This document shows, one piece after another, positions 40,797 through 64,000 of a stretch of DNA of 64,000 nucleotides. The position numbers and the translations under genes are program-made. The stretch spans positions 6,634,001-6,698,000 of the forward strand of contig NZ_CP118527.1 of the NCBI RefSeq assembly GCF_028885415.1, given 5' to 3'. This DNA comes from Streptomyces coeruleorubidus (GTDB lineage: Bacteria > Actinomycetota > Actinomycetes > Streptomycetales > Streptomycetaceae). A model generated the notes under the pieces. It had not been told where the DNA came from. It searched no databases and was given only the letters and a program-made list of their open reading frames with translations. Every line of letters begins with the position of its first letter. The first letter of the stretch is position 1.

Positions 40797-43091
40797 ATGC
40801 AGCAGCAGGCTATTCAGATCATCGGTGCCCGTGAGAACAACCTCAAGGGCATCTCCGTGGAGGTGCCGAAACACAAGGTCACCGTGTTCACGGGGGTATC
40901 GGGATCGGGAAAGTCGTCCTTGGTATTCGACACAATCGCGGCGGAATCCCAACGGCAGCTCAATGAGACGTTCACTGCGTTCGTGCGCAATCGCCTGCCC
41001 AAATACGGTCAGCCCGACGTGGACGACATCGCTAACCTCTCCGCTGCGGTGATCATCGATCAGAAGCGGATCGGGGGGAACGCGCGGTCCACCGTCGGGA
41101 CGATCACCGACATCTACGCCTTGCTCCGGCTGCTCTATTCCCGGGTGGGCAAGCCCTGGATTGGTTATTCGAACGCCTTCTCGTTCAACGACCCCTCGGG
41201 AATGTGCCCCGATTGCGAGGGCCTCGGCCACCGGGTGCAGGTCGACCTCGACAAGCTGCTCGACAGGTCCAAGTCCCTCAATGAAGGCGCCATCCGGCAT
41301 CCCGCCTTCAATGTCGGTGGCTGGTTCTGGAAGCTGTACGCCAATTCCGGCCTCTTCGACAACGACAAGAAGCTCCGCGACTACACCGAGAGCGAGTGGC
41401 AGGCGTTCCTGTACGGGGCCCAGGGGTCGATCGCTCTGGAGTGGCAGGGCGGCAAGATCAACTCCAAGTACGAAGGGCTGATGGACAAGTTCAACCGGCT
41501 CTACCTGCGCAAGGAGCCGGACGAGATGAGCGCCAAGAACCGGGTGGCGCTGGAGCAGGTCGTCACCCGGGGGCCCTGCGACACCTGCAAGGGGCAACGG
41601 CTCAGCCAGCAGGCGCTCGGCTGCCGCATCAACGGCCGGAACATCGCCGAACTAGCCTCCCTGGAGATCGCCGACCTGATGGAGGCGGTCAAGAAGGTCG
41701 ACACGTCCTCCGTCTCCACCCTGACGGCCAGTCTGATCGAGCGGCTCCAGCACCTCATCGAACTGGGGCTGGGATACCTCAGCCTCAACCGTGAGACCTC
41801 CACGCTCTCCGGCGGCGAGTCGCAGCGCATCAAGATGGTGCGTCACCTGAACAGTTCGCTCGTCGACATGGTGTACATCTTCGACGAGCCCACGATCGGC
41901 CTGCACCCCAGCGACGTCCAGCGGCTCAGCCGGCTCCTGATGGAACTGGCCGAGAAGGGCAACACCGTGCTGGTGGTCGAGCACGACCGCGACATCATCG
42001 AGATGGCCGAGCACGTCATCGACATCGGGCCCGGGGCCGGGCGGCACGGAGGCGAGATCGTCTACCAGGGCGACGTCCGGGGCCTCACCGAGGCGGACAC
42101 GCCGACCGGACGGTTCCTCCGCAGGATCATCCCGATCAAGGAGCGATTCCGCGAGCCCAGGGGACACCTGGAGGTGACGGGAGCCCGGATCCACAACCTC
42201 AAGGACATCAGCGTACGGATTCCGCTCGGCGTACTGACCGCCGTCACCGGACCGGCTGGCTCCGGCAAGAGCACGCTCATCCACGACGTACTGCTGCGGC
42301 AGCACCCCTCGGCGGTCGTCATCGACCAGTCCGCGGTCACCACCAACCGGCGTTCGAACCCGGCGACCTACACCGGCATCATGGACGAGATCCGCAGGCT
42401 GTTCGCCCGCGAGAACCAGGTCAGCCCCTCACTGTTCAGCTTCAACTCCGAGGGCGCCTGCCCCACCTGCCAGGGACACGGCATCATCTACACCGACCTC
42501 GCCTTCATGGATCCGATGATCACGACCTGCGAGGTCTGTGCGGGGATGCGTTTCACCGATGACGTCCTGCGCCTGACCCTGCGCGGGCAGAACATCCACG
42601 ACGTGCTGTCGATGAGCGCCGCTGAGGCGGCCGAGTTCTTCACCGAACCCAAGGTCGCCAAGACCCTCCGTTCCATCAACCAGGTCGGCCTCGGCTATCT
42701 CCAGCTCGGGCAGCCGCTCAACACCCTCTCCGGCGGCGAGTGCCAGCGCATCAAGCTCGCCACGGAGCTCGGGAAGAGGGGCAGCGTCTACGTCATGGAC
42801 GAGCCCACCACCGGACTCCACATGTCCGACGTCGACAGCCTCGTACACCTGGTCGACGGCCTAGTCGAGAAGGGGAACTCGGTCATCGTCATCGAGCACA
42901 ATCTCGACGTCGTCAAGCACGCGGACTGGGTCGTCGACCTCGGCCCCGGAGGCGGCAGCGAGGGCGGCCGGGTGATCTTTGAGGGCACCCCCGCCGACCT
43001 GGCGGAGGCCGAGCACTCCGTCACTGGGCGGTTCCTCGCCGCGTCCCTGGCGGGCGCCGGTTCCGAGGCCGACCACCGGGCCCGGCGCTGA
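40797..43091 (+). CDS. drrC: UvrA-like anthracycline self-resistance ATPase DrrC
   Basis: 764 residues, shorter than true UvrA (about 950). There are two ABC ATPase modules: Walker [10 protein letters not shown] near residue 28 and GPAGSGKST near 485, with signatures [11 protein letters not shown] and [11 protein letters not shown] and Walker B/D-loops [10 protein letters not shown] and [10 protein letters not shown]. Zinc-finger Cys pairs CPDC/CDTC and CPTC/CEVC are present. DrrC-type proteins bind drug-intercalated DNA and free it in an ATP-dependent way, complementing efflux. ATG 40797 has GAGG six bases upstream. It is the leftmost gene of the cluster. Confidence 0.92.
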
Positions 43092-43131
43092 TCCTTGACC
43101 CCGGGTGCTGAGCGGCGTCCCGTACGTGCGC

Positions 43132-43164
43132 GTCCGGCCGGGAACGCCGCGGCCCCGGCCGGAC
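43132..43164. terminator. Terminator between convergent drrC and dnrS
   Basis: Perfect 11-bp inverted repeat GTCCGGCCGGG / CCCGGCCGGAC with an 11-base loop, between two convergent genes. Confidence 0.78.
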
Positions 43165-43253
43165 CCTGAGAGCGGCATGCGGATCCCTTCGAGAGGGACG
43201 CGTGCACACCCGCCATGGTTCGTACCGGGACCCTGTGGTCGTCGAGGCGGGAC

Positions 43254-44549
43254 CTAGTGCCGGACGCCCTGCCCGGCCGGCGCACGGTGCCGGGCCGTCA
43301 GCTGTTCCAGCGTCGGCACCACCGCACCGGGTGCCGGGGTCCGCAGCATCTCCGCGCGGATCCGCGCCGCGCCCTGCCGGAAGGACGGCTCGGCCAGTAC
43401 CTGAGCCAGCCTGTCCCTGACCCGGCCGGCCGAGGCGCCCTCGCCGTGCGGCGGGAGGAAGATCCCCGCGCCCAGCTTCTCCAGCTGCCCGGCCCGGAAG
43501 ACGTCGTCCCACTGCCAGGCGAGGGCAAGCTGAGGCACCCCGTGCAGCGCCGCCGTCGCCCAGGTGCCGGCGCCGCCGTGGTGCACGACGGCCGCGCAGC
43601 TCGGCAGGACGACGTGCAGGGACAGGCTGTCCACCACCCGCACGTTCCCGGGCAGAGGCGGCAGGCCCTCGCGCTCCTCGGCCTTGACCGTGGCGACCAC
43701 CTCGGCGTCCAGCTCCGCGATCGAGGCCAGCAGCTCACCGGCCCGGGGCAGCCCGGTGAAGCCCGTCGAGCGCTCCGTGATGCCCTGGGTGAGCAGGACC
43801 CTCGGGCGCCCCGGATCCGCCCGCAGCCACGGCGGCACCACCGCCGGGACCGGGCCGTTGTACGGGACGAACCGCATCGGCACCGTCGGGCGGGCCGTGG
43901 CGAACCGCACGCTCGGTGGCATCTGGTCGATCGTCCAGTGGCCGCTGATCACCTCGGGCCCGAAGGCCGCACCGTGCCGCTCCAGCGTCCACGTCAGCCA
44001 CTCCTCCAGGGCGTCGTCCCGGCGCTCGGCCGGCACCTCGTGCAGCACCTGCTGGAACCGGTCGTGCACCCGCAGGAAGAGGTCCGGGCCCCACAGCAGG
44101 CGGGCCTGCGCCGCGCCGGTCACCTGGGCCGCCACCGCGCCGGCGAAGGTGAAGGGCTCCCAGACGACCAGGTCGGGCCGCCACCAGGCGGCGAAGTCCA
44201 CCATCTCGTCGATCATGGAGTCGTTGTTGATCTGGGCGTAGAACGCCGCCGTCAGCATGGACGTGGACGCTTCGAGGAACTCCAGGTCGAGCAGCTCCGG
44301 CCGGTTCTCCAGGTAGTCCGGGTTCCGGTGCAGCGCGAACACGCCGGGCGCCATGGCCCCCATCGCCGCCTGCACCTGGTGGTCCGTACCCACCGGTACA
44401 GCCGTGAGTCCAGCGCGGGTGATGCTGTCGGTGAGAGCGGGCTGGCTCGCCACCCGGACGTCGTGCCCGGCCGCCCGCAGCGCCCAGGCGAGCGGCACCA
44501 CACCGTTGAAGTGCGCGTCCATGGCGAACGCCGTCACGAGCACCTTCAT
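43254..44549 (-). CDS. dnrS: Daunosaminyl glycosyltransferase DnrS
   Basis: 431 residues, GT-B fold of the activator-dependent antibiotic glycosyltransferases. It has the N-terminal acceptor-binding domain (MKVLVTAFAMDAHFNGVVPLAWAL, cited by position 1-24) and the C-terminal nucleotide-sugar motif SCAAVVHHGGAGTWATAA. It should transfer TDP-L-daunosamine to the C-7 hydroxyl of rhodomycinone-type aglycones. Such enzymes need a P450-like partner, and dnrQ lies just 18 bp upstream in the same operon. ATG 44549 follows GGAGGGTGA. It is the last gene of the dnrD-K-P-Q-S operon. Confidence 0.9.
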   Translation of the reverse strand: MKVLVTAFAMDAHFNGVVPLAWALRAAGHDVRVASQPALTDSITRAGLTAVPVGTDHQVQAAMGAMAPGVFALHRNPDYLENRPELLDLEFLEASTSMLTAAFYAQINNDSMIDEMVDFAAWWRPDLVVWEPFTFAGAVAAQVTGAAQARLLWGPDLFLRVHDRFQQVLHEVPAERRDDALEEWLTWTLERHGAAFGPEVISGHWTIDQMPPSVRFATARPTVPMRFVPYNGPVPAVVPPWLRADPGRPRVLLTQGITERSTGFTGLPRAGELLASIAELDAEVVATVKAEEREGLPPLPGNVRVVDSLSLHVVLPSCAAVVHHGGAGTWATAALHGVPQLALAWQWDDVFRAGQLEKLGAGIFLPPHGEGASAGRVRDRLAQVLAEPSFRQGAARIRAEMLRTPAPGAVVPTLEQLTARHRAPAGQGVRH

Positions 44550-44567
44550 GGGGTCACCCTCCCTGGG

Positions 44568-45884
44568 TCACTTCTGGGCCAGCCGCAGCGAGAGCGGGGC
44601 GCGGACCACAGGGGAGCGCCCGCGCCGCAGCGGATCGCCCTCGGCCCGCAGCCCGGGCAGCCGTTCGGCCACCGCCCGCAGGACGGCGGTGCACTGCACG
44701 CGGACGAGCGGGGCGACCAGCCCCAGATGGTCCCGGCCCGCCAGGGCCATGTGCGTGAAACCGGGGCTACGGGGGCGGTCTAGACGGAATCGGTCCGGGT
44801 CCTCGTACAGCGCCGGGTCCCGCTGGGCGGCGTCGACCAGCACCACCACGTGCTGGTCCGCCTCCAGCGTCTCGCCACCGATCTGAACCTCTCCCTGGGT
44901 GATCAGGCTGCGCAGCGTCACAGGCGGTGCCCAGCGGAGGGTCTCCTCGACCGCGTCCGCCGCCCTGCCGGGATCGGCCCGCAGCAGCGACCACTGCTCG
45001 TCGTGCTTCAGCAGAGCCATGACGGCGTTCGCCACGGTGGCGATCGCTGTCTCGGCCCCGACCACCGTGCTCAGCACTGCGGCCGTGACGGTGTCCCCGG
45101 GATCGCGTCCGCCGTCGGGGTCCACGGCCAGCAGGGCGCTCACCGCACCGTCGGCCGGTGCGGTGGGGTGGTTGGCCACGGCCGCCGCCATCAGCTCCCG
45201 GACGCGGCGCAGCGCCCGCGTCATCGCCCGGGCCACCGGGAGGCGCGGCGGGCAGAGGGCGGAGTCGAGCACCGGGCCGCAGGCGGCCAGCAGGTCCGGC
45301 AGTTCCGCCCGTGCTTCGTCCGGGAGACCCAGGACGGCGGCGAGCGAGCCCGCGATCGCAGGCCGGGCCAGATCCGATACCACGTCGAAGTGCGGCGGCA
45401 GGCCGTCCAGCACCCGGTGCACCGCACGCTCCGCGTCGACCTGCCACGCGGTGCACGTACGGGGCCCGAGGACCGGACCGAGCAGGGCTGCGAGACGGTC
45501 GTAGTCGGCGGCGGCCGGCGTCAGCAGGTCCTCGCCGAGCGGAGTGACGTGACAGGTCCGCCAGGTCTCCCAGACGTTCTCGAGAACGTGCTCCTGCGGG
45601 CCCTCTGAGGCGGGGTGCCGGGGACCCAGCAGCGGATCGTCCAGCAGGCGGGCCGATATTCCGCCGTCCGCCGTCACCCACGTGCCCAGCGCACTGCGGT
45701 GGAGCGGGCCCCGGTCGCGGACCTGCTCACCGAGGGACAGATGATCGGCCTCGCCGCGCAGTCGCCGGGCATAGGGGTCGCCCAGCGCGCCGAAGACGAA
45801 GTGGAAGCCGCGCACGGTCAGCAGATGGCGCCCCAGCTCGCTGTCGGTCGGGGCGGCCGGCGGCGCGGACGTGGGTGTGGGCAT
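44568..45884 (-). CDS. dnrQ: P450-like activator DnrQ lacking the heme cysteine
   Basis: 438 residues with a cytochrome P450 fold (EETLR helix K motif at 313-317). At the heme-binding loop (about 376-395) the family F-G-x-G-x-H-x-C-x-G is degenerate: the residue aligned with Cys is Leu in DHLGLVAPL, so no heme thiolate is possible. The I-helix motif is also altered ([13 protein letters not shown]). This matches DnrQ/AknT/DesVIII proteins, which activate and stabilise the cognate glycosyltransferase. It lies 18 bp before dnrS. ATG 45884 is chosen as the first residue of the conserved region. Confidence 0.92.
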
Positions 45885-45895
45885 CGTCGTGCTCC

Positions 45896-46792
45896 TCACA
45901 CTGTCGCGGCCCGGGTGTGGGCGCAGATGGCGGCGGCCAGCGGCTCGTGGACCGCGAGGGGCAGGGCGTGCCCCATGTTCTCGATCTCCACGACCCGGGC
46001 GCCGGGAATCCGGTCGGCGAGGTGCCGGGCGTGCGGCGGTGGGGCCGCGGGGTCGCACATCGCCTGGATCGCCAGTACCGGTGTGGTGACGCGGGACAAC
46101 TCCGCCCCCCGCGACACCGGCGGTTGCGGGATCATGTGGTGCACGATCGGCTCGTCGAACGTTCCCGCGTGCCCGGCGGCCAGGAGTTCACGACGCCGGA
46201 ACTCGTCGGCGTCGAAGGGCACTCCCTCCCCGTTGAGCAGGCGCCACTTCTCCACCCGGCGCTCCAGCAGTTCCTCGCCCGTCTCGGCCGGTTGCTGAAG
46301 CAGCGTCATCATGTCGAGGAACCGCCGGCTGGGCACCGGCAGTCCGCTGACGGAAGGCTCACCCTTGAGAGCCGCCTCCAGGTCGGCGTCGAAGTCGACG
46401 TCGAGCGCGCCCCCCAGCATCACGGTGAGTGTGAGGAGCCGCTCCGGAGCGTCCAGGGCGAGCAGCTGGCCGATGGTGTGGCCCAGCGACATGCCGACCA
46501 CATGGGCGGCGCGGACCTGCCAGCCGTCCAGGACGGCCAGCGCGTCGGTGGCCAGCTCGTCGAAGCCGTAGGGGTGGAGCGCGAAGTCGCACCGGGAGGA
46601 GCGCCCGGTGTCCCGGTGGTCGTAGCGGATGACGAAGTGCCCGGCCGCGACCAGGCGTTCGACGAACTCGTCCGGCCACGACCTGGCCGAGAGGTTGCCC
46701 CCGGCGATCAGGAGCAACGGGGCGTCGGCCGGATCGCCGAGCCCTTCGCTCCACAGGGTCACCTCATCGTTGGTGATCATGCGTGTCGGCAT
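45896..46792 (-). CDS. dnrP: Anthracycline 15-methylesterase DnrP
   Basis: 298 residues, alpha/beta hydrolase strongly resembling RdmC and DnrP. The nucleophile is Ser102 in [11 protein letters not shown], with an oxyanion region [11 protein letters not shown] and catalytic His in NMGHALP. It removes the methyl ester from the C-15 carbomethoxy group of glycosylated rhodomycin, after which decarboxylation at C-10 follows. It lies 11 bp from dnrQ and 30 bp from dnrK in one operon. The sequence appears almost identical to the S. peucetius protein as I recall it. Confidence 0.93.
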
Positions 46793-46822
46793 TGCTGATG
46801 AACCCTTCCCGTACCTCGTGTG

Positions 46823-47938
<1,116 letters not shown>

Positions 47939-48376
47939 TCAGGGGCGCCAGCCCTCGGGGGTGGGCCAGGGCTCGCCGAGCTGGCGGTAGGTGCCGAGGT
48001 AGTCGGGCCAGTCGCGGTGATCGCGGATCTTGCCGTCGACGATGCGGATGAGGTGGATCTGCTCACCGGAGAACCGGCGCCCGGTTGCCGGCATGCCGAC
48101 GAGGTTGCCGACGTGCCGCCCGTAGAGGGCGAGCTTCGCCCGGACCCACGGGCCGTTCTCCTCGTACCCGATCTCCTCCAGGTGCGCCTCCTCGGAGAAG
48201 GCGTACTTGAGCCAGGTGACGGCGGCCGCGAAAGCCTCCGGGCCGCGCAGCTCCGGGTTGTGCTCCAGCGCGCCGGGGTTCAGGTACTCGAGGTGAATGA
48301 ACTCCGCGACATCGTCGGTTTTTCCCGTGTTGTATGCCTCCACCATGCGGCGGACCAGATCGATCTGTGTGCTCAT
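47939..48376 (-). CDS. dnrD: Aklanonic acid methyl ester cyclase DnrD (SnoaL-like)
   Basis: 145 residues, SnoaL fold, closely resembling AknH/SnoaL/DnrD. It has [18 protein letters not shown], the catalytic-region His/Asp in [20 protein letters not shown] (cited by position) and the C-terminal [20 protein letters not shown] motif. It closes the fourth ring of aklanonic acid methyl ester by an intramolecular aldol reaction, yielding aklaviketone. ATG 48376 has GGGAGGG upstream. First gene of the minus-strand operon, with a SARP-type control region upstream. Confidence 0.94.
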
Positions 48377-48559: not shown

Positions 48560-49420
48560 GTGCAGGATTCGTCCTACAAAGAGCAGGTAACTCAGGCCTT
48601 CGACCAGTCGTCGTCGACCTACGACCGACTGGGAGTGGAATTCTTCACGCCCATGGGTCGCCGCCTGGTGGAAATCTCGGAGCCGGTCACCGGTGAACGA
48701 GTGCTCGACATCGGCTGCGGGCGCGGCGCATGCCTTTTTCCGGCTGCGGAAAAGGTCGGTCCTCAGGGGCGCGTCCACGGAATCGACATTGCTCCCGGAA
48801 TGATCGAGGAAGCTCGCAAGGAAGCCGCCGAACGCGGTCTGCGGAATATCGCCCTCGATGTGATGGACGCGGAGACGCCCGAACTCCCGGCGCGCTCCTT
48901 CGACCTGGTCATGGGGAGCTACAGCGTCATCTTCCTGCCGGACGCGGTGGGGGCGCTGGCGCGCTACGCCGGAATCCTGGACCATGGCGGCAGGATCGCG
49001 TTCACCAGCCCGGTCTTCCGCGCCGGCACGTTCCCGTTCCTGCCACCGGAGTTCACCCCGCTCATCCCGCAGGCGCTGCTGGAGCACCTGCCCGAGCAGT
49101 GGCGGCCCGAGGCGCTGGTCCGGCGGTTCAACAGCTGGCTGGAGCGGGCCGAGGATCTCGCCCGCACCCTGGAACGCTGCGGCTACACCTCGGTCGCCGT
49201 CACCGACGAGCCGGTGCGGATGACGGCCCTGTCCAGCGAGGCGTGGGTGGAGTGGTCCCACACCCAGGGCATGCGTCTGCTGTGGCAGAACCTCCCGCAG
49301 GCCCAGCGAACGGAACTGCGCGCACGGCTCGTCGAGGGACTCGACGAGCTGAGCGACGCCACCGGGGCCCTCGCCATCGACGTGCCGGTCCGCTTCGTCA
49401 CCGCCCGGGTCGCCCACTGA
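48560..49420 (+). CDS. dnrC: Aklanonic acid methyltransferase DnrC
   Basis: 286 residues, class I SAM-dependent methyltransferase. It has [20 protein letters not shown] (motif I) and [15 protein letters not shown] (motif II), with the family N-terminal [20 protein letters not shown]. It methylates the carboxyl of aklanonic acid to its methyl ester, the substrate for DnrD encoded on the opposite strand. GTG 48560 has GGAG seven bases upstream. The 3' end overlaps the convergent dpsD by 23 bp, an arrangement that could allow antisense effects. Confidence 0.92.
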
Positions 49421-50414
49421 GCACGGTGCCCTGCTCGCGCACCGCGGCCAGCGCCGCCGCCGCGGACGTCCGGTCCACCTCGGCGGTGCCGGCCCGCGGC
49501 GGCAGCAGCGGCACCACCGAGTTCTTCCCGGACCGCACCGTCGGATGGCGGCGGGCGATGGTGCTCAGCCCCTGCCCCGGCCCCGTCTCCAGGCAGACAA
49601 CGCCCGTGCGGGAGCCGAGCATCGCGTCCAGTGCCGGCCAGAAGCGGACCGTCTCCACGGGATGCCCGGCCCAGTACGACGGGTCGGCGGCCAGTTGCCC
49701 GGTCACCGCACCCGACCGGTACCCGGAGCGGAGGGGGATGGAGGGCGCCGCCACGCGCGTGGATGCGAACCGCTCGGCCGCCCCCGCCGCGTATGGGGCC
49801 AGCATCGGACTGTGGAAGGCGGTCAGCGAGGGCACCTCACGGCACGTAAGCCCAGCCTCCCGCAGCGCGCGGGCGACCCCGGCGAGCGATGCGACGGGCC
49901 CGGCGAGGATGGTCTGGCGGGGCGAGTTGACGGCCGCGACCACCACCTCCCCATCCCCGAGATACGGGCCCAGCACGTCCTCGCCCGCGGCGACCGCCAG
50001 CATTCCCCCGGGCGGTGCCTGGGCCAGCCGTCGCACCCGGTCCAGCAGGAGGCCGGCCGCGTCGCGCAGCGTGAACACCCCGGCGAGCGCGGCCGCCGCC
50101 ATTTCGCCGACGCTGTGCCCGAGCAGGGCCCACGGCCGGCCCGTCGTGGCCATCACCATCCGGCCGAGGGCGTAGTCCACCGCGAACAGCAACGGCTGGG
50201 AACGGGTGACGTGGTCCAGTGGCACGGCCGGATGGTCGCTCAGCCAGTCGGCACGCAGCCGCCCGCCCTCACTGTCGCCGGCGGCGTCGTACGCGTCGAA
50301 GACCTCGTCCATGGCGGCCGTGAAGGCCGGTTCGGATCCGTACAGGCCGACGGCCATCCGCGCGTGCTGGGACCCCTGCCCGGGGAACATCAGGAGAATC
50401 GCGGGCGCATCCAT
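49398..50414 (-). CDS. dpsD: Acyltransferase homologue DpsD
   Basis: 338 residues of the malonyl-CoA:ACP transacylase family. GQGSQ begins at about residue 12, catalytic Ser101 is in [12 protein letters not shown], and His about 198 in TAFHSPM. In the daunorubicin pathway DpsD and DpsC together bias the synthase towards a propionyl starter, although the acyltransferase role of DpsD is not strictly required. GAGGAG precedes ATG 50414. It ends the dpsA-B-C-D group and overlaps convergent dnrC. Confidence 0.92.
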
Positions 50415-50424: not shown

Positions 50425-54021
<3,597 letters not shown>

Positions 54022-54025
<4 letters not shown>

Positions 54026-54411
54026 GTCGTCCGCCCTCCGGGCCCGCTCACGGCCGGGACGTCCGGCGCGACACGGATCTGACGGTGCCGGTACAGGGTC
54101 GGTTCGCTGGTGCTCAGGGCCCGGAGGGCGGCCGCGTGGGCCGGGAACTCCGGGTGCGCCACGGCGGCGCGGAAGGAGGCCTCGTCGTCCCAGACCGCGA
54201 TGTTCACGTACTGCGGGCGGGCGTGAGCCGAGCCGGGACCGGTGTCGGTCGGCACCAGCAGGGTGTGCCAGCGGAAGCCGGGCCGGCGACACAGGAACTC
54301 GGCCGTTTCGGCGAACGCCGCCTCGAAGTCCTCGGCGGATCCGCTCAGGGTGAATCGGTTGACGAACGTCACCGACCCGGAGCCGGCGTCGTTCGGTTCT
54401 GGCAGAGGCAT
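54022..54411 (-). CDS. dnrG: Anthrone oxygenase DnrG
   Basis: 129 residues, antibiotic-biosynthesis monooxygenase (ABM) fold similar to AknX and DnrG. It shows SVTFVNRFTLSGSAEDFEAAF, CRRPGFRWHTLLVP and YVNIAVWDDEASFRAAVAHP. It oxidises the C-12 methylene of the anthrone to make 12-keto aklanonic acid, without metal or cofactor in this family. First gene of the minus-strand operon; it is divergent from dpsE, with SARP-type repeats between. ATG 54411. Confidence 0.93.
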
Positions 54412-54602: not shown

Positions 54603-55388
54603 ATGTCCGACGCAGCCGACCGGGTCGCACTCGTCACCGGGGGAACCAGCGGCATCGGTCTCGCGGTGGTGCGCAAGCTCGCCCGGGACGGGACCCGGGT
54701 GTTCCTGTGCGCTCGCGACGAGAGCGCCGTCACCGGCACCGTGAAGGAACTTCAGGCATCGGGACTGGAGGTGGACGGCGCGCCCTGCGACGTGCGGAGC
54801 ACCGCCGACGTCGACCGGCTGGTCCAAACGGCCCGGAACCGCTTCGGGCCGATCGACATCGTCGTCAACAACGCCGGCCGCGGCGGTGGAGGCGTGACCG
54901 CCGAGATCACGGACGACCTGTGGCTCGACGTCGTCGACACCAACCTCAGCGGGGCCTTCCGGGTCACCCGCGCCGTCCTCACCGGCGGCGGCATGCAGGA
55001 GCACGGCTGGGGCCGGATCATCAACATCGCCTCCACCGGCGGCAAGCAGGGAGTGGCCCTCGGCGCCCCCTACTCCGCCTCCAAGAGCGGCCTGATCGGC
55101 TTCACGAAGGCCGTCGCGCTGGAGCTGGCCAAGACGGGCATCACCGTCAACGCCGTCTGCCCCGGGTACGTCGAGACGCCCATGGCACAGGGCGTGCGGC
55201 AGCGCTACGCAGCCTTCTGGGGGATCACCGAGGACGACGTCCTGGAGAAGTTCCAGGCGAAGATCCCCCTCGGACGCTACTCGACGCCCGAGGAGGTGGC
55301 CGGGATGGTGCACTACCTGGTCTCCGACAGCGCCGACTCGATCACGGCCCAGGCCATCAACGTCTGTGGTGGCCTCGGCAGTTACTGA
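54603..55388 (+). CDS. dpsE: C-9 ketoreductase DpsE
   Basis: 261 residues, short-chain dehydrogenase of the ActIII type. The NADPH motif is TGGTSGIGLAVVRKL, followed by VNNAGRGGGG, catalytic Ser in NIASTGGKQG, Tyr/Lys in YSASKSG, and PGYVETPMAQGVRQ. It reduces the C-9 carbonyl of the nascent decaketide, setting the fold of the first ring. GGGAGGACC precedes ATG 54603. It is followed by dpsF after 29 bp, making a dpsE-dpsF operon. Confidence 0.95.
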   Translation: MSDAADRVALVTGGTSGIGLAVVRKLARDGTRVFLCARDESAVTGTVKELQASGLEVDGAPCDVRSTADVDRLVQTARNRFGPIDIVVNNAGRGGGGVTAEITDDLWLDVVDTNLSGAFRVTRAVLTGGGMQEHGWGRIINIASTGGKQGVALGAPYSASKSGLIGFTKAVALELAKTGITVNAVCPGYVETPMAQGVRQRYAAFWGITEDDVLEKFQAKIPLGRYSTPEEVAGMVHYLVSDSADSITAQAINVCGGLGSY

Positions 55389-55417: not shown

Positions 55418-56365
55418 ATGTCCGAGTCGCCGCTTCAGCAGACCGAGCACGAGATCCACACCTCCGCCGCGCCGGACGCCGTGTTCGCCGTGCTGGCCGA
55501 CGCACGGGCCTGGCCCGCCGTGTTCCCGCCCAGTGTCCACGTCGAACAGGTCGAGCGCACCGGCTCCAGCGAGCGCATCCGCATCTGGGCCACCGCCAAC
55601 GGCTCGCTGCGCACCTGGACGTCGCGGCGCGAGCTCGACGAGCGGGCCCGGCGCATCCGTTTCCGGCAGGAGGTGTCCGCCCATCCCGTCGCCGCCATGG
55701 GCGGCGAATGGATCGTCGAGGAAGCCGGCGACGGCGGCACCCGGGTGCGGCTGACGCACGACTTCCGGGCCGTGGACGACGACCCGGAGACGATCGGCTG
55801 GATCCACCGGGCCGTGGACCGCAACAGCGAAGCGGAACTGGCGTCCCTGCGCACCGCGCTGGAACGACCCGACGGCACCGCGCCGACGACCTTCGAGGAC
55901 ACCGTCGTCGTCCGCGGCCGTGCCGAGGACGTCTACGACTTCCTCCACCGCAGCGACCTCTGGGAGAAGCGGCTCTCCCACGTCGCGCGGATCGCGGTCA
56001 AGGAGGAGGAACCGGGGCTCCAGCACATGGAGATGGACACCCTCACCGCGGACGGCTCGGTGCACACCACCGCGTCGGTGCGCGTGTGCTTCCCCGAACG
56101 CCGCGTCATCGTCTACAAGCAGCTGCGCACGCCGCCGCTGCTCGCGCTCCATCTCGGCCGTTGGTCGGTCCGTCCCGCCGACGACGGGGACGGGATCGCC
56201 GTCACGTCGGCCCACACCGTGTCCGTGGCCCGCTCGGCGATCCCCGGCGTCCTCGGTGCGGGGGCGAGTGAGACGGACGCCGTGGACTTCGTCCGCCGGG
56301 CCCTGGGCCGCAACAGTCTGCTGACCCTGGAAGCGGCCAGGCAGTACGCCGAGTCCAGCGCCTGA
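55418..56365 (+). CDS. dpsF: Aromatase/cyclase DpsF
   Basis: 315 residues with two START/Bet v 1-like polyketide cyclase halves (about 8-150 and 155-315), each with a WEKRLSH- or VFPPSVHVEQVE-type core. The didomain arrangement is that of ActVII/AknE1-type aromatases, which aromatise the first ring after C-9 reduction. AGGAGGGCAG precedes ATG 55418. It ends 65 bp before a perfect 28-bp hairpin and converges on dnrE. Confidence 0.94.
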   Translation: MSESPLQQTEHEIHTSAAPDAVFAVLADARAWPAVFPPSVHVEQVERTGSSERIRIWATANGSLRTWTSRRELDERARRIRFRQEVSAHPVAAMGGEWIVEEAGDGGTRVRLTHDFRAVDDDPETIGWIHRAVDRNSEAELASLRTALERPDGTAPTTFEDTVVVRGRAEDVYDFLHRSDLWEKRLSHVARIAVKEEEPGLQHMEMDTLTADGSVHTTASVRVCFPERRVIVYKQLRTPPLLALHLGRWSVRPADDGDGIAVTSAHTVSVARSAIPGVLGAGASETDAVDFVRRALGRNSLLTLEAARQYAESSA

Positions 56366-56491: not shown

Positions 56492-56499
56492 GGCGAGCC

Positions 56500-57255
56500 T
56501 CACGTCACCGAGAGACCCCCGTCCACGGCCAGCACGGCACCGCTGGCGTACGCGGCTTCGGGATCGGCGAGCCGCACCACCCACCACGCGACGTCCTCGG
56601 GCCGGCCCACACGGCCGAGCGGGACGCGCTGCCCCATGGCTTCCAGGAACCCGTCGTACGCCTCCTGGGACATCCCCGCCCGGACCCCCGCGCCCGTCTC
56701 GATCACTCCCGGGGCGACACCGACCACGCGAATGCCGCGGGGACCGAGTTCCACGGCCCAGGACCGCGTCAGCAGGTCCAGGCCGGCCTTGGCCGCCCCG
56801 TACACCGCGTTCCCCGGCCAGGCCCGCCGGCCGAGTGCGCCCGCCGAACCGATGTTCACCACCAGGCCGGAAGCGGTCTCCAGGGGGCCGAGCAGGGCCT
56901 GGGTGAGCAGCACGGGGGCCACGAGGTTCGTGGCCACCTGTGCTTCCACCGCGGTGCGGTCCAGCTCTCCCAGGTGCCCGAAGGCGGCCGTGGCGGCATT
57001 GTTCACGAGCACGTCGACCTCGCCGCCGAGCCGCTCGCGCACCTCCCGGACGACCGCCTCCGGCGCCGCGGGGTCGGTGATGTCCACGGCCAGCGTGTGG
57101 GCGTCCTTGTGCCCGTCCACCGTCTCGGCCAGCGGACCGGCAGTCCTGCCCACGACGAGGACGCGGTCGCCCCGGGCGGCGAAGGCGCGGGCGACGGCTC
57201 GTCCGATGCCGGAGCCGCCGCCGGTCACGATCACGGATCGCTGTGTGTTCTCCAT
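56500..57255 (-). CDS. dnrE: Aklaviketone reductase DnrE
   Basis: 251 residues, short-chain dehydrogenase. [15 protein letters not shown] (NADPH), [10 protein letters not shown], catalytic Ser in NIGSAGALG, Tyr/Lys in [20 protein letters not shown]. In this cluster position the expected reaction is reduction of the C-7 ketone of aklaviketone to aklavinone; sequence alone cannot fix the ketone reduced. ATG 57255. It is followed upstream by dnrH (9 bp), dnmT and dpsH in one operon, and downstream by the strong hairpin. Confidence 0.88.
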
Positions 57256-57264
57256 GCGGCGAGG

Positions 57265-58596
57265 CTAGGCACCGCCGGTGGAAGGCGACTTGAGCGCCGG
57301 GCCCCCCTCCGCCCCGCCGGCCCGGTGCTCGGCGGTCAGCCGCTCCAGCACGGGCACGATGTCGTTCGGGCTCGGCGTCCCGACGATCTCGGCGCGCACC
57401 CGGCGTGCCCCGGCGGCGTAGGACGGATCGTCGAGCAGGGCGAGGACGCGCTCGCGCAGCAGTTCCGGCGAGACGTCCCGCGCGTCCACGTAACTGCCCG
57501 CACCGCTGCGGGCCAGGCCGTGCGCCTTCTCCATGGCGTCCCACATCATGTCGGGCACGATCAGCTGCGGTATCGCGTGCACCAGGGCCGTCATGAACGT
57601 GCCGGACCCGCCGTGATGGATGATGCCCGAGCAGGACGGCAGCAGGGCGTTCAGCGGGACGAAGTCCACGGCCCGCACGTTCGCCGGCAGGGTGCCGAGC
57701 TCCTCGCGCAGTTCCCGCGGCAGGGTGGCGACGACCTCCACGTCCAGGCCGTCCACGGCCGCCAGGACGTCGGAGGCGGCGACCGTGCCGGCGCCCGTCG
57801 CCTCGCCGAGGGACACACCGAGCGTCAGGCACAGGCGCCGCGGGTGGCGGGGCGGCTCGCGCAGCCAGTCGGGGAGCAGGGAGGGCCCGTTGTACGGCAC
57901 GTAGCGCACCGGCACGCAGGGCAGGTCCAGGGGGATGCGCATCGACGGCGGTGTGGGGTCGATCGTCCACTGCCCGAGGACCAGCTCCTCGCTCATGTCC
58001 CCGGCGCTGCCGCCGCACCGCTCCAGTGTCCAGGTGAGCCACTCGGCCAGCGGGTCGTCGCGCAGCTCGGGCGGTTGCCGGTCGAGCAGGGCGCGGAACG
58101 CCGTCCTGTTCCGGCCCATCTGGTCCGGGCCGAACAGCAGCCGGGCGTGCGCCGCCCCGCTGAGCCGGGCGGCCACCGGCCCGGCCAGGGTCAGCGGATC
58201 CCAGACCACGAGGTCCGGCCGCCAGTCGCGGGCGAGGCCGACGAGGTCGTCGACCATGGGCTCGGGGCACACGTTCTGGAAGACCATGGCGGTCATCGCG
58301 GTGAACATGCCGAGCGCGTGGTCCCACGGGAAGGGGTCGTCACGGGTGTTGCTCATGGCGAGGCCGCCGAGGTTGCGGTCGTCCTCGAAGCTGGCGTTGG
58401 CCTCCCGGGTCTCCTCCTCGATGTTGAGGTCCTCCCCGATCCGCACGGCGGTGAGACCGGCCCGGACGATGTCGTCGAGGACGTCGGGCTGGCTGGCCAC
58501 GAGCACTTCGTGCCCCGCGGTCCGCAGTGCCGACGCCAGGGTGACCTGGGCGTAGACATGGGACCGCGCGGCCATGGTGGCGAACAGGACGCGCAC
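57265..58596 (-). CDS. dnrH: Second glycosyltransferase DnrH
   Basis: 443 residues, same GT-B family as DnrS. N-terminal VLFATMAARSHVYAQVTLAS; C-terminal nucleotide-sugar motif SCSGIIHHGGSGTFMTAL. In S. peucetius DnrH is linked to conversion of daunorubicin to baumycin-like higher glycosides rather than to the first sugar. GTG 58596 has GGAGGTGAG six bases upstream, a very strong site. Gaps are 9 bp to dnrE and 7 bp to dnmT. An extra residue of difference from DnrS is the longer middle loop around residues 65-95. Confidence 0.88.
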   Translation of the reverse strand: MRVLFATMAARSHVYAQVTLASALRTAGHEVLVASQPDVLDDIVRAGLTAVRIGEDLNIEEETREANASFEDDRNLGGLAMSNTRDDPFPWDHALGMFTAMTAMVFQNVCPEPMVDDLVGLARDWRPDLVVWDPLTLAGPVAARLSGAAHARLLFGPDQMGRNRTAFRALLDRQPPELRDDPLAEWLTWTLERCGGSAGDMSEELVLGQWTIDPTPPSMRIPLDLPCVPVRYVPYNGPSLLPDWLREPPRHPRRLCLTLGVSLGEATGAGTVAASDVLAAVDGLDVEVVATLPRELREELGTLPANVRAVDFVPLNALLPSCSGIIHHGGSGTFMTALVHAIPQLIVPDMMWDAMEKAHGLARSGAGSYVDARDVSPELLRERVLALLDDPSYAAGARRVRAEIVGTPSPNDIVPVLERLTAEHRAGGAEGGPALKSPSTGGA

Positions 58597-58603
58597 GGGG
58601 AAC

Positions 58604-60169
58604 TCACCTCCGGGGCGGGGCGGACGGCACGGCCGAGCGGGTGACGGGCGAGCCCACGGACAGGCTGTGCAGACAGGCGACCAGGGTGCGGGCCTGGACG
58701 TTGACGTAGTGGGAGTGACGCAGCAGCCCGACCAGTTGGTGGAGCGTCAGCCAGCGGTATTCGCCACCGTCCGGGATGTCACGGTCGGCTTCGACGATCA
58801 TGTAGGTGTTCACCGCGTGGTAGAAGCGCCCTCCCTCCTCCGCGAGGGCGGTCGCGTAGCGCACGCGCTCGGGTGGAGCCTCCAGCACGGCGTCGAGGAA
58901 GCGGGGCCTGGCCTCGGCGGGCAGGGCGTGCAGACTGCCGGGGGTGCACTGCACGGTGGGCGCGATCTCCACCACGTCGACGTAGCCGGGCTCCACGCGC
59001 GCGTGCGCCAGGACGTGGAGAACCCCGTCGATCCGGCGGACCAGGAAGGCCGCGACCCCTTGGTCCTTGGGTTCGATCATCGGCTGGCTCCAGCCGGGCA
59101 CCTCCCGCGAGGCGGCCGTCACGTCGACGGCCATCACCTCCAGGAAGCGCCCGCTCTCGTGGGCGATCGCGCCGTCCCGCTCGTACCAGTGCGGCAGCGC
59201 GTTCAGCGCGGCCGGGCGGGTGACCACGTCGGTACGGCTGCGCAGGTCGGCGATCCAGCTGACGATGTCCACGGTGCTGTGCAGGCTGCCCTCGGCCGCC
59301 GCGCACGACCGCACGAGGGAGCGGTGGAAACCGGCGTCCACCCGGCCCTCGCCGCCGTCGGGTCGAGCGGGGACCACCGGGTGGCCACCCCCGGGGCCGT
59401 CGGCTCCGGCCGGCTCCGCGTCGGCCAGCGGGTGCGCTCCCTCACTCGCGAACGGCAGGCAGGCCAGCACCGTCCTGGCGTCCATGTTCACGAGGTTCTC
59501 GACCCCCAGCAGCCGGTGCAGCTGACCCAGCGTCAGCCAGTGGAAGTCCTCGTGCAGCGGGACCTCGTCGAACACCTGGACGATCATGTTGCGGTTGCGC
59601 TTGCGGTAGAACCAGGAGCCCTGTTCGGACTGGAGCACATCGGCGACCACCTGCCGTTCGGCGGTGTCGCGGAAGTGCTCCAGGTACGGGATGGCCTTGC
59701 CGCCGTGCACCCGCGTGTAGTTGCTGCGGGTGGCCTGGACCGTAGGGGAGAGCTGAAGTCCGCCGGGGTTGCCCGGCTCGAACTTGGCCTGGACGAGGCA
59801 GTGCAGGACCCCGTGGCGCTCCTTCACCAGGAAGCCGAGGATGCCCACCTCGGGCTGGTTCACGATCGGCTGGGACCAGCGCGGCACGGGGGCGCCCGGG
59901 ATGTGCACGTCCAGTCCCTCGATGCTGAAGAACCTCCCGGTGTGATGGGAGACGGTCCCGGTGACCGGGTGGCGGCTCCACCCCTTGAGGGCGTCCAGCG
60001 GAATCCGCTCGGTGCGGTGCACGACCTGCGCCGAGCGGTCGGCGTACCACGCCCAGAAACGGTCCATGCCGCCGCCCAGGCCGTCCCGGGCGAGGACGGA
60101 CCGGGCGATCTGGGCGGTCATCGCGGCGCCGCTGTGCCGGCGCACCGAGAGGGCCGGGAGAGCACGCAT
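58604..60169 (-). CDS. dnmT: TDP-4-keto-6-deoxyhexose 2,3-dehydratase DnmT
   Basis: 521 residues made of two homologous halves (about 30-240 and 290-500). Each has paired motifs such as WSQPIVNQPEVGILGFLVK and WSQPMIEPKDQGVAAFLVR, then H-(A/C)-x-V-x-x-EPG and a W-x-T-L-x-Q-L segment. This duplicated architecture defines NDP-hexose 2,3-dehydratases, which start C-2 deoxygenation on the way to TDP-L-daunosamine. It is the only daunosamine gene visible. ATG 60169 begins two bases after the dpsH stop. Confidence 0.92.
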   Translation of the reverse strand: MRALPALSVRRHSGAAMTAQIARSVLARDGLGGGMDRFWAWYADRSAQVVHRTERIPLDALKGWSRHPVTGTVSHHTGRFFSIEGLDVHIPGAPVPRWSQPIVNQPEVGILGFLVKERHGVLHCLVQAKFEPGNPGGLQLSPTVQATRSNYTRVHGGKAIPYLEHFRDTAERQVVADVLQSEQGSWFYRKRNRNMIVQVFDEVPLHEDFHWLTLGQLHRLLGVENLVNMDARTVLACLPFASEGAHPLADAEPAGADGPGGGHPVVPARPDGGEGRVDAGFHRSLVRSCAAAEGSLHSTVDIVSWIADLRSRTDVVTRPAALNALPHWYERDGAIAHESGRFLEVMAVDVTAASREVPGWSQPMIEPKDQGVAAFLVRRIDGVLHVLAHARVEPGYVDVVEIAPTVQCTPGSLHALPAEARPRFLDAVLEAPPERVRYATALAEEGGRFYHAVNTYMIVEADRDIPDGGEYRWLTLHQLVGLLRHSHYVNVQARTLVACLHSLSVGSPVTRSAVPSAPPRR

Positions 60170-60171
60170 GG

Positions 60172-60627
60172 TCAGTCCAGCCCGTCCCGGGTGACGGTGC
60201 GGTGCTTGACGCGCCACTCGCCCGCCTCCCGCACCAGGATGTCCGTGCACACCGTGCTGCGGCGCAACACCGGGTCGCCGTCGCGCGGCGTCTCCAGCAC
60301 CACCGCGTAGCTGCGGGCCGTGACCTCGTCGGGCTTGCCGTCGACGGTCAGCATGCCGATCCAGTGCCGCCGGGTGATCCCTTCGGCGGCGAACCGGTCC
60401 GTGGTCCGCCGTGCCGCACGCGCGATGTCCGCGGCCCCGCGGACGGCCTCGCCGCCCACCTCGAAGACGCCGTCGCGCGCGAACGTGCGCGCCCAGTCCT
60501 CGGCCCTGCCGTCATCCAGGAGTTGCATCTGCCGGGCGTAGAACCGCTGTACCTGGAGGTAGATGCCGGGGTCCGCAGAATCCGCCGACTCGGTCGTCGG
60601 CGCGTCGTCCGCCGGGAGCGCGTCCAT
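60172..60627 (-). CDS. dpsH: SnoaL-like protein DpsH
   Basis: 151 residues with an NTF2/SnoaL-like fold (YLQVQRFYARQMQLLDDGRAEDW, RRHWIGMLTVDG, LVREAGEWRVKHRTVTRDGL). In the S. peucetius map this position is, as I remember it, dpsH, proposed to assist cyclisation. A role as partner of a reductase in ring hydroxylation, as for SnoaL2 with SnoaW, is a competing idea. AAGGGG precedes ATG 60627. It heads the dpsH-dnmT-dnrH-dnrE operon and diverges from dpsG. Confidence 0.8.
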   Translation of the reverse strand: MDALPADDAPTTESADSADPGIYLQVQRFYARQMQLLDDGRAEDWARTFARDGVFEVGGEAVRGAADIARAARRTTDRFAAEGITRRHWIGMLTVDGKPDEVTARSYAVVLETPRDGDPVLRRSTVCTDILVREAGEWRVKHRTVTRDGLD

Positions 60628-60740
60628 GGTTACCCCTTGGGTCGTGTGATGGCCTCGGGTGGCCCGGTCCTGGCCCGGCCGCGTGCGCCTGCCGGCCGGC
60701 GCCGTGCCCAACCTGTTCCGCGCGTCTCGAGGCAGAGCGG

Positions 60741-60780
60741 ACAACCGCCGGTCCACCGCCGCTCCAGTACGACTGGACGT
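60741..60780 (+). promoter_or_regulatory. Candidate SARP repeats in the dpsH/dpsG divergent promoter
   Basis: ACAACCG (60741), TCCACCG (60752), TCCAGTA (60763) and TGGACGT (60774) start 11 bp apart. The two middle units match, in phase, the middle units at the dnrC promoter (TCCACCG, TCAAGTA). The match to the heptamer core is weaker than at the other two sites. Confidence 0.55.
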
Positions 60781-60855
60781 GCGGAACCGAGGGTGGTCGC
60801 CGCGGTCCCGACCGGGCCGTACACGTCGTGCAGCAACCGGTACGGAGGAGCAGGG

Positions 60856-61110
60856 ATGGCTGAGCTCGGCCTGGCGGAACTGCGGGAGATCATGCGGCAG
60901 AGCCTGGGGGAGGACGAGGTCCCCGACCTTGCGGACGCGGACACCGTGACCTTCGAGGACCTCGGGCTCGACTCCCTGGCCGTCCTGGAAACGGTCAACC
61001 ACATCGAGCGGACCTATGGCGTGAAGCTGCCCGAGGAGGAACTGGCGGAGATCAGGACGCCGCATGGCATGCTGATCTTCGTCAACGAGAGGCTGCGAGC
61101 GGCGGCATGA
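60856..61110 (+). CDS. dpsG: Acyl carrier protein DpsG
   Basis: 84 residues. The phosphopantetheine attachment site is Ser40 in [15 protein letters not shown], and the four-helix ACP pattern is complete. It carries the growing decaketide for DpsA/DpsB. It lies about 6.8 kb from dpsA, the unusual separation reported for the daunorubicin minimal PKS. GGAGGAG precedes ATG 60856, and its stop overlaps the dnrU start as ATGA. Confidence 0.96.
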
Positions 61111-61970
61111 CGGCCTCCACCCCGCACCACGGGACGCCACGCGGCGGCCTGTCGGGCCGGACGGTGCTGGTCACCGGGGCCACGTCCGGCATCGGCCGGG
61201 CGGCGGCCCTCGCGGTCGCCCGCCAGGGGGCCCGCGTCGTGCTCGTCGGCCGGGACCCCGAGCGTCTGCGGACCGTCACGAACGAGGTGGCCCGGACCGC
61301 CGGCCCGGCCCCGGACGCCTTCCGCGCGGACTTCGCCGAGCTGCGCCAGGTACGCGACCTGGGGGAGCGGCTGCGGGACCGGTACCCGCGCATCGATGTC
61401 ATGGCCAGCAACGCCGGCGGCATGTTCTGGTCGCGCACCACGACCCAGGACGGGTTCGAGGCCACCATCCAGGTCAATCATCTCGCGGGCTTCCTGCTGG
61501 CACGGCTGCTGCGGGAGCGGCTCGCGGGCGGGCGGCTGATCCTCACCTCGTCCGACGCGTACACCCAGGGCCGGATCGACCCGGACGACCTCAACGGCGA
61601 CCGTCACCGCTACAGCGCCGGCCAGGCGTACGGCACGTCCAAACAGGCCAACATCATGACCGCGGCGGAGGCCGCCCGGCGCTGGCCGGACGTGCTGGCG
61701 GTCAGCTATCACCCCGGCGAGGTCCGCACCCGCATCGGACGGGGCACGGTCGCCTCGTCCTACTTCCGGTTCAACCCCTTCCTGCGCTCCGCGGCGAAGG
61801 GCGCCGACACCCTCGTGTGGCTGGCGGCCGCGCCGGCCGAGGAGTTGACCACGGGCGGCTACTACAGCGACCGGCGGCCGTCCCCGGTGAGCGGCCCGAC
61901 CGCCGACGCCGGCCTCGCGGCGAAGCTCTGGGAGGCCAGCGCGGCCGCCGTCGGCGACACCGCGCACTGA
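61107..61970 (+). CDS. dnrU: Retinol-dehydrogenase-type SDR DnrU
   Basis: 287 residues. [19 protein letters not shown] (NADPH), [11 protein letters not shown], catalytic Ser in LTSSDAYTQ, Tyr/Lys in YGTSKQAN, and a C-terminal [11 protein letters not shown] extension typical of retinol-dehydrogenase-like SDRs. Its position between dpsG and dnrV matches dnrU, associated with carbonyl reduction of daunorubicin-type compounds. Similarity to SnoaW-type proteins cannot be excluded. ATG 61107 is coupled to dpsG. Confidence 0.87.
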
Positions 61971-62053
61971 CGGCGGCGGCCCGCCCCGCCCGCATGTCCG
62001 TCTCATCCGCGAGCGCAGACGCTCGTGTGCCGATCCATCGAAAGGAACGATTC

Positions 62054-62881
62054 GTGACCAGGTTCGCGCCCGGCGCCCCCGCATGGTTCGACCTCGGTTC
62101 GCCCGATGTCGCCGCCTCGGCCGACTTCTACACCGGCCTGTTCGGCTGGACCGCCACCGTGGTCAGCGACCCGGGCGCCGGGGGATACACGACGTTCAGC
62201 TCCGACGGGAAGCTGGTCGCCGCGGTCGCCCGCCACCAGATCGACACCCCCTACCACCGGCCGTACGGGCCCGGGAACGACCAGCACGGCATGCCGGCCA
62301 TCTGGACCGTGTACTTCGCCACCGACGACGCCGACGCACTGACCAAGCGGGTCGAGACGGCGGGCGGCGAGGTCATCATGACCCCGATGGACGTCCTCGG
62401 CCTCGGCCGGATGGCGGTCTTCGCCGACCCCTCCGGGGCCGCGTTCGCGGTCTGGCGCAAGGGAGTCATGGAGGGCGCGGAGGTGACGGGCGTGCCCGGC
62501 TCGGTCGGCTGGGTCGAGCTGGTGACCGACGGCATCGGGGCCGCCCGGGACTTCTACCCGGCGACCCTCGGCCTGGCTCCGGCCGACACCGGCCTGAAGG
62601 GCGTCACCGACCCGGTCTGGCACATCGGTGACACACCGGTCGCCGGCACCCAGGAGCTGGGCGTCACCGGCGCGGTACGGCCGCACTGGGCCGTGCTGTT
62701 CGCCGTGCGCGACTGCGACGCGACGGTCCGGCGCGCCGTTGAACTCGGCGGCTCCGTCGAGAACGAGCCCGCCGACACGCCCAGGGGGCGGCGGGCGGAC
62801 CTGCTCGACCCGCACGGGGCCGGCTTCTCGGTGGTCGAACTGCGGGAGGGGTACCCCGCGGCGGCGGGCGGTGCCTCGTGA
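62054..62881 (+). CDS. dnrV: VOC-family accessory protein DnrV
   Basis: 275 residues with two vicinal-oxygen-chelate (glyoxalase-like) halves (about 5-125 and 140-265): [24 protein letters not shown] and [18 protein letters not shown], each cited in part. In S. peucetius, DnrV is needed for efficient DoxA activity and may bind product or substrate. GTG 62054 has AAAGGAACG upstream; its stop overlaps the doxA start as GTGA, so the two are made together. Confidence 0.94.
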
Positions 62882-64000
62882 GCGGCGAGGCGCCCCGGGT
62901 GGCCGCCGACCCGTTCGCGTGTCCCATGATGACCATGCAGCGCAAGCCCGAGGTGCACGACGCCTTCCGGGAGGCGGGCCCGGTCGTCGAGGTGAACGCC
63001 CCCGCGGGCGGACCCGCCTGGGTCATCACCGATGACGCCCTCGCCCGCGAGGTGCTGGCCGATCCCCGGTTCGTGAAGGACCCCGACCTCGCCCCCGCCG
63101 CCTGGCGGGGGGTGGACGACGGTCTCGACATCCCCGTTCCGGAGCTGCGACCGTTCACGCTCATCGCCGTGGACGGCGAGGCCCACCGGCGCCTGCGCCG
63201 CATCCACGCACCTGCGTTCAACCCGCGCCGGCTGGCCGAGCGGACGGATCGCATCGCCGCCATCGCCGGCCGGCTGCTCACCGAACTCGCCGACGCCTCC
63301 GGCCGGTCGGGCAAACCGGCCGAGCTGATCGGCGGCTTCGCGTACCACTTCCCGCTGCTGGTCATCTGCGAGCTGCTCGGCGTGCCGGTCACCGATCCGG
63401 CGATGGCCCGCGAGGCCGTCAGCGTTCTCAAGGCACTCGGCCTCGGCGGCCCGCAGAGCGGCGGGGGTGACGGCACGGACCCTGCCGGGGGCGTGCCGGA
63501 CACCTCGGCCCTGGAGAGCCTGCTCCTCGAAGCCGTGCACTCAGCCCGGCGGAACGACACCCGGACCATGACCCGCGTGCTGTACGAACGCGCGCAAGCC
63601 GAGTTCGGCTCGGTCTCCGACGACCAGCTCGTCTACATGATCACCGGGCTCATCTTCGCCGGCCACGACACCACCGGCTCCTTCCTGGGCTTCCTGCTCG
63701 CGGAGGTCCTGGCGGGCCGCCTCGCGGCGGACGCCGACGAGGACGCCGTCTCCCGGTTCGTGGAGGAGGCGCTGCGCTACCACCCGCCGGTGCCCTACAC
63801 GTTGTGGAGGTTCGCTGCCACGGAGGTGACCATCGGCGGCGTCCGGCTGCCCCGCGGAGCGCCGGTGCTGGTGGACATCGAGGGCACCAACACCGACGGC
63901 CGCCATCACGACGCCCCGCACGCCTTCCACCCGGACCGTCCCTCGTGGCGGCGGCTCACCTTCGGCGACGGGCCGCACTACTGCATCGGGGAGCAGCTCG
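62878..64000 (+). CDS. doxA: Daunorubicin C-14/C-13 hydroxylase cytochrome P450 DoxA (partial)
   Basis: 374 codons are visible before the right edge. I-helix [13 protein letters not shown] (about 260-272), ExxR as EEALR (Glu297, Arg300) and the heme loop [13 protein letters not shown] with Cys369, so only the last ~50 residues are missing. DoxA hydroxylates C-13 of deoxycarminomycin or deoxydaunorubicin twice and finally C-14 of daunorubicin to doxorubicin. The sequence differs from my recollection of S. peucetius DoxA at scattered positions, for example EAH after VDG, which points to a close relative or strain variant. GTG 62878 overlaps dnrV. Confidence 0.95.

Follow-up and report, generated by a model that had tools for sequence, protein, structure and literature searches.

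The pathway to daunorubicin and doxorubicin is among the best studied in Streptomyces, and another copy of its gene cluster therefore adds little chemistry. In S. peucetius, the gene dnrV is located directly upstream of doxA, which codes for a cytochrome P450; this adjacency and a drug-binding role of DnrV are described in PMC12979805, and dnrU, dnrH and dnrX appear as branch genes in PMC11043234. Here we describe a cluster of this type, with the same arrangement of dnrV and doxA, in a window of 64,000 nucleotides (positions 6634001-6698000) from the genome of a Streptomyces strain, the window strain, which forms a single contig of 9.41 Mb. The stretch to the right of the window was included, and coordinates above 64000 are genome positions minus 6634000. 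The cluster comprises 37 called genes over about 40.5 kb, from the start of drrC (40797, its ATG) to the end of dnmL (80914). The window contains the left 23 kb of it (40797-64000); position 64000 is only the window edge, since doxA has its stop at 64146 and the cluster continues to 80914. Judged from its genes, the locus is a complete and apparently intact daunorubicin/doxorubicin-type cluster with a predicted product and an already known pathway. We consider very probable, taken as a whole, the reading that the locus is a complete cluster of this type and that it was gained recently and horizontally in the history of the window strain and S. coeruleorubidus, in which it lies at different chromosomal places.

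Identity and completeness of the cluster

The assignment is based on proteins of this pathway with solved structures. DnrK (354/356 identical residues to 5eeg), DoxA (411/414 to 9o35), DpsC (336/341 to 4xs7) and DnmZ (397/400 to 4zxv) are 98.5-99.4% identical to their solved counterparts, with mismatches counted in the printed alignments; one mismatch each in DpsC and DnmZ is residue 1, the called start codon. We take the four solved chains to originate from S. peucetius. With identities this high, a different anthracycline class was dropped from consideration; the values are far from the moderate values that the preliminary description of this DNA had named as an argument against its daunorubicin/doxorubicin assignment. 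DnrP was compared with the homologue RdmC (1q0r) alone, and DnrV with the distant vicinal oxygen chelate (VOC) protein 3oxh alone. The DpsC protein carries a serine in the motif QVSNGG (Ser106 in the call of 341 amino acids, Ser118 when counted from the GTG start at 51486), and the solved DpsC has the same serine at the nucleophile position, in agreement with the Ser-type DpsC proposed before. This residue is presumably the Ser118 of the literature.

The closest cluster is that of S. coeruleorubidus ATCC 13740 (NZ_CP023694.1), which has the same 37 genes in the same order and orientation; across the central 34.7 kb, 98.98% of the nucleotides are identical in the two clusters. Identity over such a length excludes a chance match. 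The left portion of the cluster had been correctly recognised as daunorubicin/doxorubicin-type. The genes named earlier from drrC to doxA were all found as open frames in the expected order, and the genes anticipated further to the right (dnrI, drrAB and the dnm genes) follow beyond doxA, from dnrI through dnmL.

The starter polyketide synthase (PKS) set is complete, consisting of dpsA, dpsB, dpsG, dpsC with its serine nucleophile and dpsD; its specificity for propionyl is predicted. The C-11 hydroxylase gene dnrF and the 4-O-methyltransferase gene dnrK are both present, as are the methylesterase gene dnrP and, immediately before doxA, dnrV. All genes for thymidine diphosphate (TDP)-daunosamine (dnmL, dnmM, dnmT, dnmU, dnmV, dnmJ and dnmZ) were found together with the dnrS/dnrQ pair, and the self-resistance genes drrA, drrB and drrC as well as the regulatory genes dnrI, dnrN and dnrO complete the set.

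Divergence and chromosomal place of the cluster

Divergence was determined at fourfold sites, excluding genes without a match or with less than 70% coverage. This left 37/37 cluster genes (35/37 for S. prasinopilosus), 33/35 left-flank genes and four of the five core open reading frames (ORFs; 3/5 for the genome G349). Between the window strain and S. coeruleorubidus, the 37 cluster genes differ at 170 of 7883 fourfold sites (2.16%), compared with 697 of 6540 (10.66%) in the 33 left-flank genes, 116 of 901 (12.87%) in four distant core genes and 48 of 645 (7.44%) in rpoB. The highest value of a cluster gene (4.8%) lies below the lowest value of a left-flank gene (5.1%; Mann-Whitney P 3.6e-13). 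When 14 right-flank genes are added, the 47 flank genes differ at 974 of 8683 sites (11.2%).

The chromosomal places are also different. Up to about 37936 the chromosome of the window strain matches positions 6239381-6275342 of S. coeruleorubidus, and from 99053 on it matches positions 6315338-6327895; the roughly 40 kb between 6275342 and 6315338 have no match to the daunorubicin cluster. The cluster of S. coeruleorubidus itself is located near 7104306-7144816. In the window genome only about 4.5 kb separate the flanks of that site (7472226 and 7476769), and no cluster lies in this interval; doxA has a single match in the entire genome at E<=1e-120. The sites are reciprocally empty, each strain lacking the cluster at the place where the other carries it. 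Because of the 2.16% divergence in the cluster against 7.4-12.9% elsewhere, and because of the reciprocal empty sites, there is good evidence from the sequence comparison that at least one of the two close species obtained the cluster by horizontal transfer, at a time that is recent relative to their separation. The donor may have been either of the two species or a third strain.

Both strains could instead have inherited the cluster vertically, followed by its movement within one of the chromosomes. They are indeed close relatives (98.2% nucleotide identity in the rpoB region), and both carry the full cluster. However, vertical descent predicts a divergence like that of the chromosome, and the 2.16% found are too low for this; we dropped vertical inheritance with later internal movement, which we regard as very unlikely.

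Several points weigh against a recent transfer of a complete cluster. Three of the 14 right-flank genes have a divergence of 3.7-9.2%, and in two of these (3.7% and 4.3%) it is smaller than in the most divergent cluster gene; the statement that the values do not overlap is therefore limited to the left flank. The cluster genes are linked, so that the P value overstates the independent evidence, and the core sample consists of four genes plus rpoB. In S. ruber, the divergence of the cluster (25.2%) lies between that of the core genes (31.4%) and rpoB (19.4%), without a clear excess of similarity, and in G349 the cluster (36.5%) is no closer than the core (34.7%; rpoB 24.9%). Thus, transfer is not demonstrated for each lineage. 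For S. prasinopilosus, by contrast, the cluster differs at 10.9% of the sites versus 29.3% in the core and 15.4% in rpoB, which is an excess of cluster similarity. A further point against transfer is that the cluster ends in the window genome showed neither an integrase nor a bracketing repeat nor an intact transposon, and no vehicle is therefore evident.

Cluster ends and possible vehicles

The preliminary description had placed the left border of the cluster against conserved chromosome. The border is indeed visible, but the adjoining DNA is not conserved: the chromosome common with S. coeruleorubidus stops at about 37936-38057, and the DNA from there to about 40518 has no match in the corresponding region of S. 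coeruleorubidus. This DNA codes for a TetR regulator and a PIN-domain protein and contains a weak match to an IS4 transposase. A stretch of 107 bp (40051-40157) has matches of 81-87% in other Streptomyces, in some of them several per genome; located within an ORF with a weak match to the N-terminal part of the IS4 transposase, it is perhaps the remnant of an insertion sequence at the left border. The G+C content of the cluster (71.3%) equals that of the chromosome to the left (71.3%) and is lower in the adjoining DNA (68.2% left, 62.3% right).

In the relatives, homology to the cluster stops at similar positions, 73-278 bp upstream of drrC in four of them and, in three, 50-74 bp before dnmL begins (dnmL is broken in S. 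prasinopilosus). A cross-comparison of the flanks of five genomes at E<=1e-10, covering 3.4 kb per side in S. prasinopilosus and 8-13 kb left and 11-29 kb right in the other three relatives, revealed no flank common to any of the genomes, the sole match being that of the left flank in S. prasinopilosus to the right flank in the same genome. There, a direct repeat of 256 bp, 94% alike, is located on both sides of the cluster (C427:2991-3246 and 42611-42866). The daunorubicin cluster might be a discrete travelling unit of about 40.5 kb, with ends just upstream of drrC and dnmL, that has no element of its own and has entered unrelated chromosomal places repeatedly and in recent times; we consider the chances for this to be evenly balanced. 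The shared ends may also mark the limits of what selection keeps, and they are therefore by themselves not proof of a mobile unit. If the cluster is such a unit, the capacity to make daunorubicin belongs to the unit and not to a species lineage.

The surroundings offer a possible vehicle, a neighbouring pSAM2-like integrative element or an insertion-sequence composite that carried the cluster in. An IS481 transposase (90027-90914) and pSAM2-like genes of the RepSA and FtsK type (102074-106355) are present on the right side only, and the weak IS4 match is located at the left border. However, S. coeruleorubidus has a 93% match to the stretch with the RepSA and FtsK-type genes (99053-111581) at the same place, where it lacks the cluster, and on this ground the pSAM2-like element was dropped as carrier. 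Moreover, exact repeats that link the two borders of the cluster in the window genome reach no more than 14 bases in direct and 16 bases in inverted orientation, and the border repeat search gave nothing but short matches of 13-17 bases in the window genome, S. coeruleorubidus, S. ruber and G349. A recombinase together with terminal or att repeats around the cluster, as expected of a self-contained mobile element, was not found. We regard carriage by the pSAM2-like element or an insertion-sequence composite as very unlikely. Carriage on a plasmid was dropped as well, since a single tblastn search of a plasmid collection with DnrK (E<=1e-60) gave no match.

To the right of the cluster there is a second open rpoA gene (85025-86047, minus strand), the product of which is 97% identical to the canonical RpoA. 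Apart from the start codon, all nine substitutions are confined to the C-terminal part (residues 269-330), and the two genes differ at 51 of 196 fourfold sites. Two or more RpoA matches at E<=1e-100 were found in 22 of 150 Streptomyces genomes, including the window strain.

Gene set, predicted pathway and related clusters

Genes were called with a home-made codon-score caller, the starts of dnrC and dpsC being revised separately, and families were assigned by NCBIfam and Pfam searches. The names dnrC, dnrE, dpsH, dnrU, dpsY, dnrX and drrD/dnrW were given according to what we take to be the order of the S. peucetius map, together with the family matches.

On the left, drrC (40797..43091, plus strand) encodes a UvrA-like self-resistance protein of 764 amino acids (TIGR00630, 768.6 bits, above cut-off; 99% to S. 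coeruleorubidus). The minus strand then carries dnrS for the activator-dependent glycosyltransferase of daunosamine (43254..44549; TIGR04516 above cut-off), dnrQ for its P450-derived activator (44568..45884; TIGR04515 above cut-off), the methylesterase gene dnrP (45896..46792; E 1.4e-105 to the aclacinomycin methylesterase RdmC), dnrK for carminomycin 4-O-methyltransferase (46823..47893) and dnrD for a methyl ester cyclase of the SnoaL/DnrD family (47939..48376; NF033407 above cut-off). The gene dnrC for the aklanonate methyltransferase (48560..49420, plus strand; 286 amino acids, methyltransferase families) has a GTG start after AGGAG. It is followed on the minus strand by dpsD (49398..50414; acyltransferase-like, acyltransferase families), dpsC for the ketosynthase III-like starter enzyme of the Ser type (50425..51486), the genes for chain-length factor and ketosynthase alpha, dpsB (51483..52679) and dpsA (52766..54025), both with ketosynthase family matches, and the anthrone oxygenase gene dnrG (54022..54411; PF03992 ABM). 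The plus strand carries dpsE (54603..55388; ketoreductase, short-chain dehydrogenase/reductase (SDR)/FabG family) and dpsF (55418..56365; aromatase/cyclase, PF10604 twice), and the minus strand a dnrE-like SDR reductase gene (56500..57234; SDR families), dnrH for a second activator-dependent glycosyltransferase (57265..58596; TIGR04516 above cut-off), dnmT for a nucleoside diphosphate (NDP)-hexose 2,3-dehydratase (58604..60169; PF03559) and the gene of a SnoaL-like protein, the candidate for dpsH (60172..60627; PF13577). The last genes in the window, all on the plus strand, are dpsG for the acyl carrier protein (60856..61110; families of this protein), dnrU for an SDR that by order is the 13-ketoreductase (61107..61970; SDR families), dnrV for a two-domain VOC protein (62054..62881; PF00903/PF18029) and doxA (62899..64000, cut by the window edge).

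Beyond the edge follow dnrI (64543-65244), encoding a Streptomyces antibiotic regulatory protein (SARP), and the aminotransferase gene dnmJ (65267-66379). The assignments of dnmV (66381-67304; weak family matches) and dnmU (67312-67938; below the rmlC cut-off with 133 vs 155.75) rest on collinearity. Next are dnmZ (67985-69187), the cyclase gene dpsY (69368-70147), dnrX (70200-71429; C-methyltransferase-like protein of 409 amino acids, named by position and size) and a gene for a flavoprotein of the berberine-bridge type (71422-72993; drrD/dnrW candidate). The latter two lie side by side at 70200-72993; the dnrX product belongs to a C-methyltransferase family, and the neighbouring flavoprotein resembles the sugar oxidase AknOx, the aclacinomycin oxidoreductase that is its best solved relative. 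The right end contains drrB (73117-73968; TIGR01247 and TIGR00025 matches, both below cut-off), drrA (73965-74957; TIGR01188 above cut-off), the C-11 hydroxylase gene dnrF (75191-76801; NF046069 and NF046068 above cut-offs), dnrO (76779-77801), dnrN (78234-78842), dnmM (78876-79850; an open frame of 324 amino acids, above family cut-off) and dnmL (79847-80914). The family searches identified a SARP (dnrI), a response regulator and a WYL/helix-turn-helix protein as regulators.

The gene set, its order and the near-identity of the proteins were seen directly; the catalytic steps are carried over from the established S. peucetius pathway. The propionyl-primed type II PKS encoded by dpsABCDEFG would produce a decaketide, which would be converted to epsilon-rhodomycinone by the products of dnrG, dnrC, dnrD, dnrE and dnrF. 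The products of dnmL, dnmM, dnmT, dnmU, dnmV, dnmJ and dnmZ would supply TDP-daunosamine, to be attached by DnrS with the activator DnrQ, and DnrP, DnrK and DoxA with DnrV would turn the glycoside into daunorubicin and some doxorubicin. Part of the material would be diverted to 13-dihydro and baumycin-type products by dnrU, dnrH and dnrX, and the host would be protected by drrA, drrB, drrC and DnrV. The pair of dnrX and the AknOx-like flavoprotein gene together with the second glycosyltransferase gene dnrH suggests a predicted formation of the baumycin acetal by oxidation of an added sugar. It is possible, with a chance somewhat short of even, that the cluster, although complete, yields mainly a branch product such as baumycin-type glycosides or 13-dihydrodaunorubicin, or that it is silent. 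All of dnrH, dnrX, dnrU and the AknOx-like flavoprotein gene are present, and daunorubicin is a low-abundance intermediate toward baumycin in most producers, as stated in PMC5750220; on the other side, the regulatory genes dnrI, dnrN and dnrO are open frames.

The present comparison adds good evidence that the cluster as a whole was transferred recently, and its chromosomal place is known in both strains. It also provides a copy that is complete within the chromosome and has an open dnmM, in a strain closely related to S. coeruleorubidus. The two strains lend themselves to the questions by what means antibiotic clusters of 40 kb move when they have no element of their own, and whether cluster or host accounts for differences in production.

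The doxA P450 is rare, since only two of 392 Streptomyces genomes have it at E<=1e-120, the window strain and G349 (82%). A DoxA scan with one genome per species, in which records very near to that of the window may be left out, gave three loci, in S. coeruleorubidus (99%), S. prasinopilosus (94%) and S. ruber (88%). All 37 genes are collinear, each over at least 96% of its length, in S. coeruleorubidus ATCC 13740, S. ruber and G349, and 35 of 37 are collinear in S. prasinopilosus. The mean nucleotide identity of the genes is 94.9% for S. prasinopilosus NRRL B-2711 (35 genes), 88.6% for S. ruber JCM 3131 (37 genes) and 82.9% for G349 (37 genes). Compared with the window strain, S. coeruleorubidus lacks about 124 bp of the intergenic region between dnrO and dnrN (77990-78109 in the window strain, including a short tandem repeat) and shows small indels upstream of drrC. 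One stop symbol each was found in the alignments of S. ruber drrC and G349 dnrS. In S. prasinopilosus, dnmM and dnmL are reduced to pieces at the right end of the cluster (C427:41842-42361), and a full dTDP-glucose 4,6-dehydratase is encoded elsewhere in its genome. The dnrM gene of S. peucetius reportedly carries a natural frameshift (Gallo 1996, cited in PMC11676270). The dnmM gene of the window strain is open, in contrast to this frameshifted S. peucetius gene, to which the pieces of dnmM and dnmL in S. prasinopilosus are comparable.

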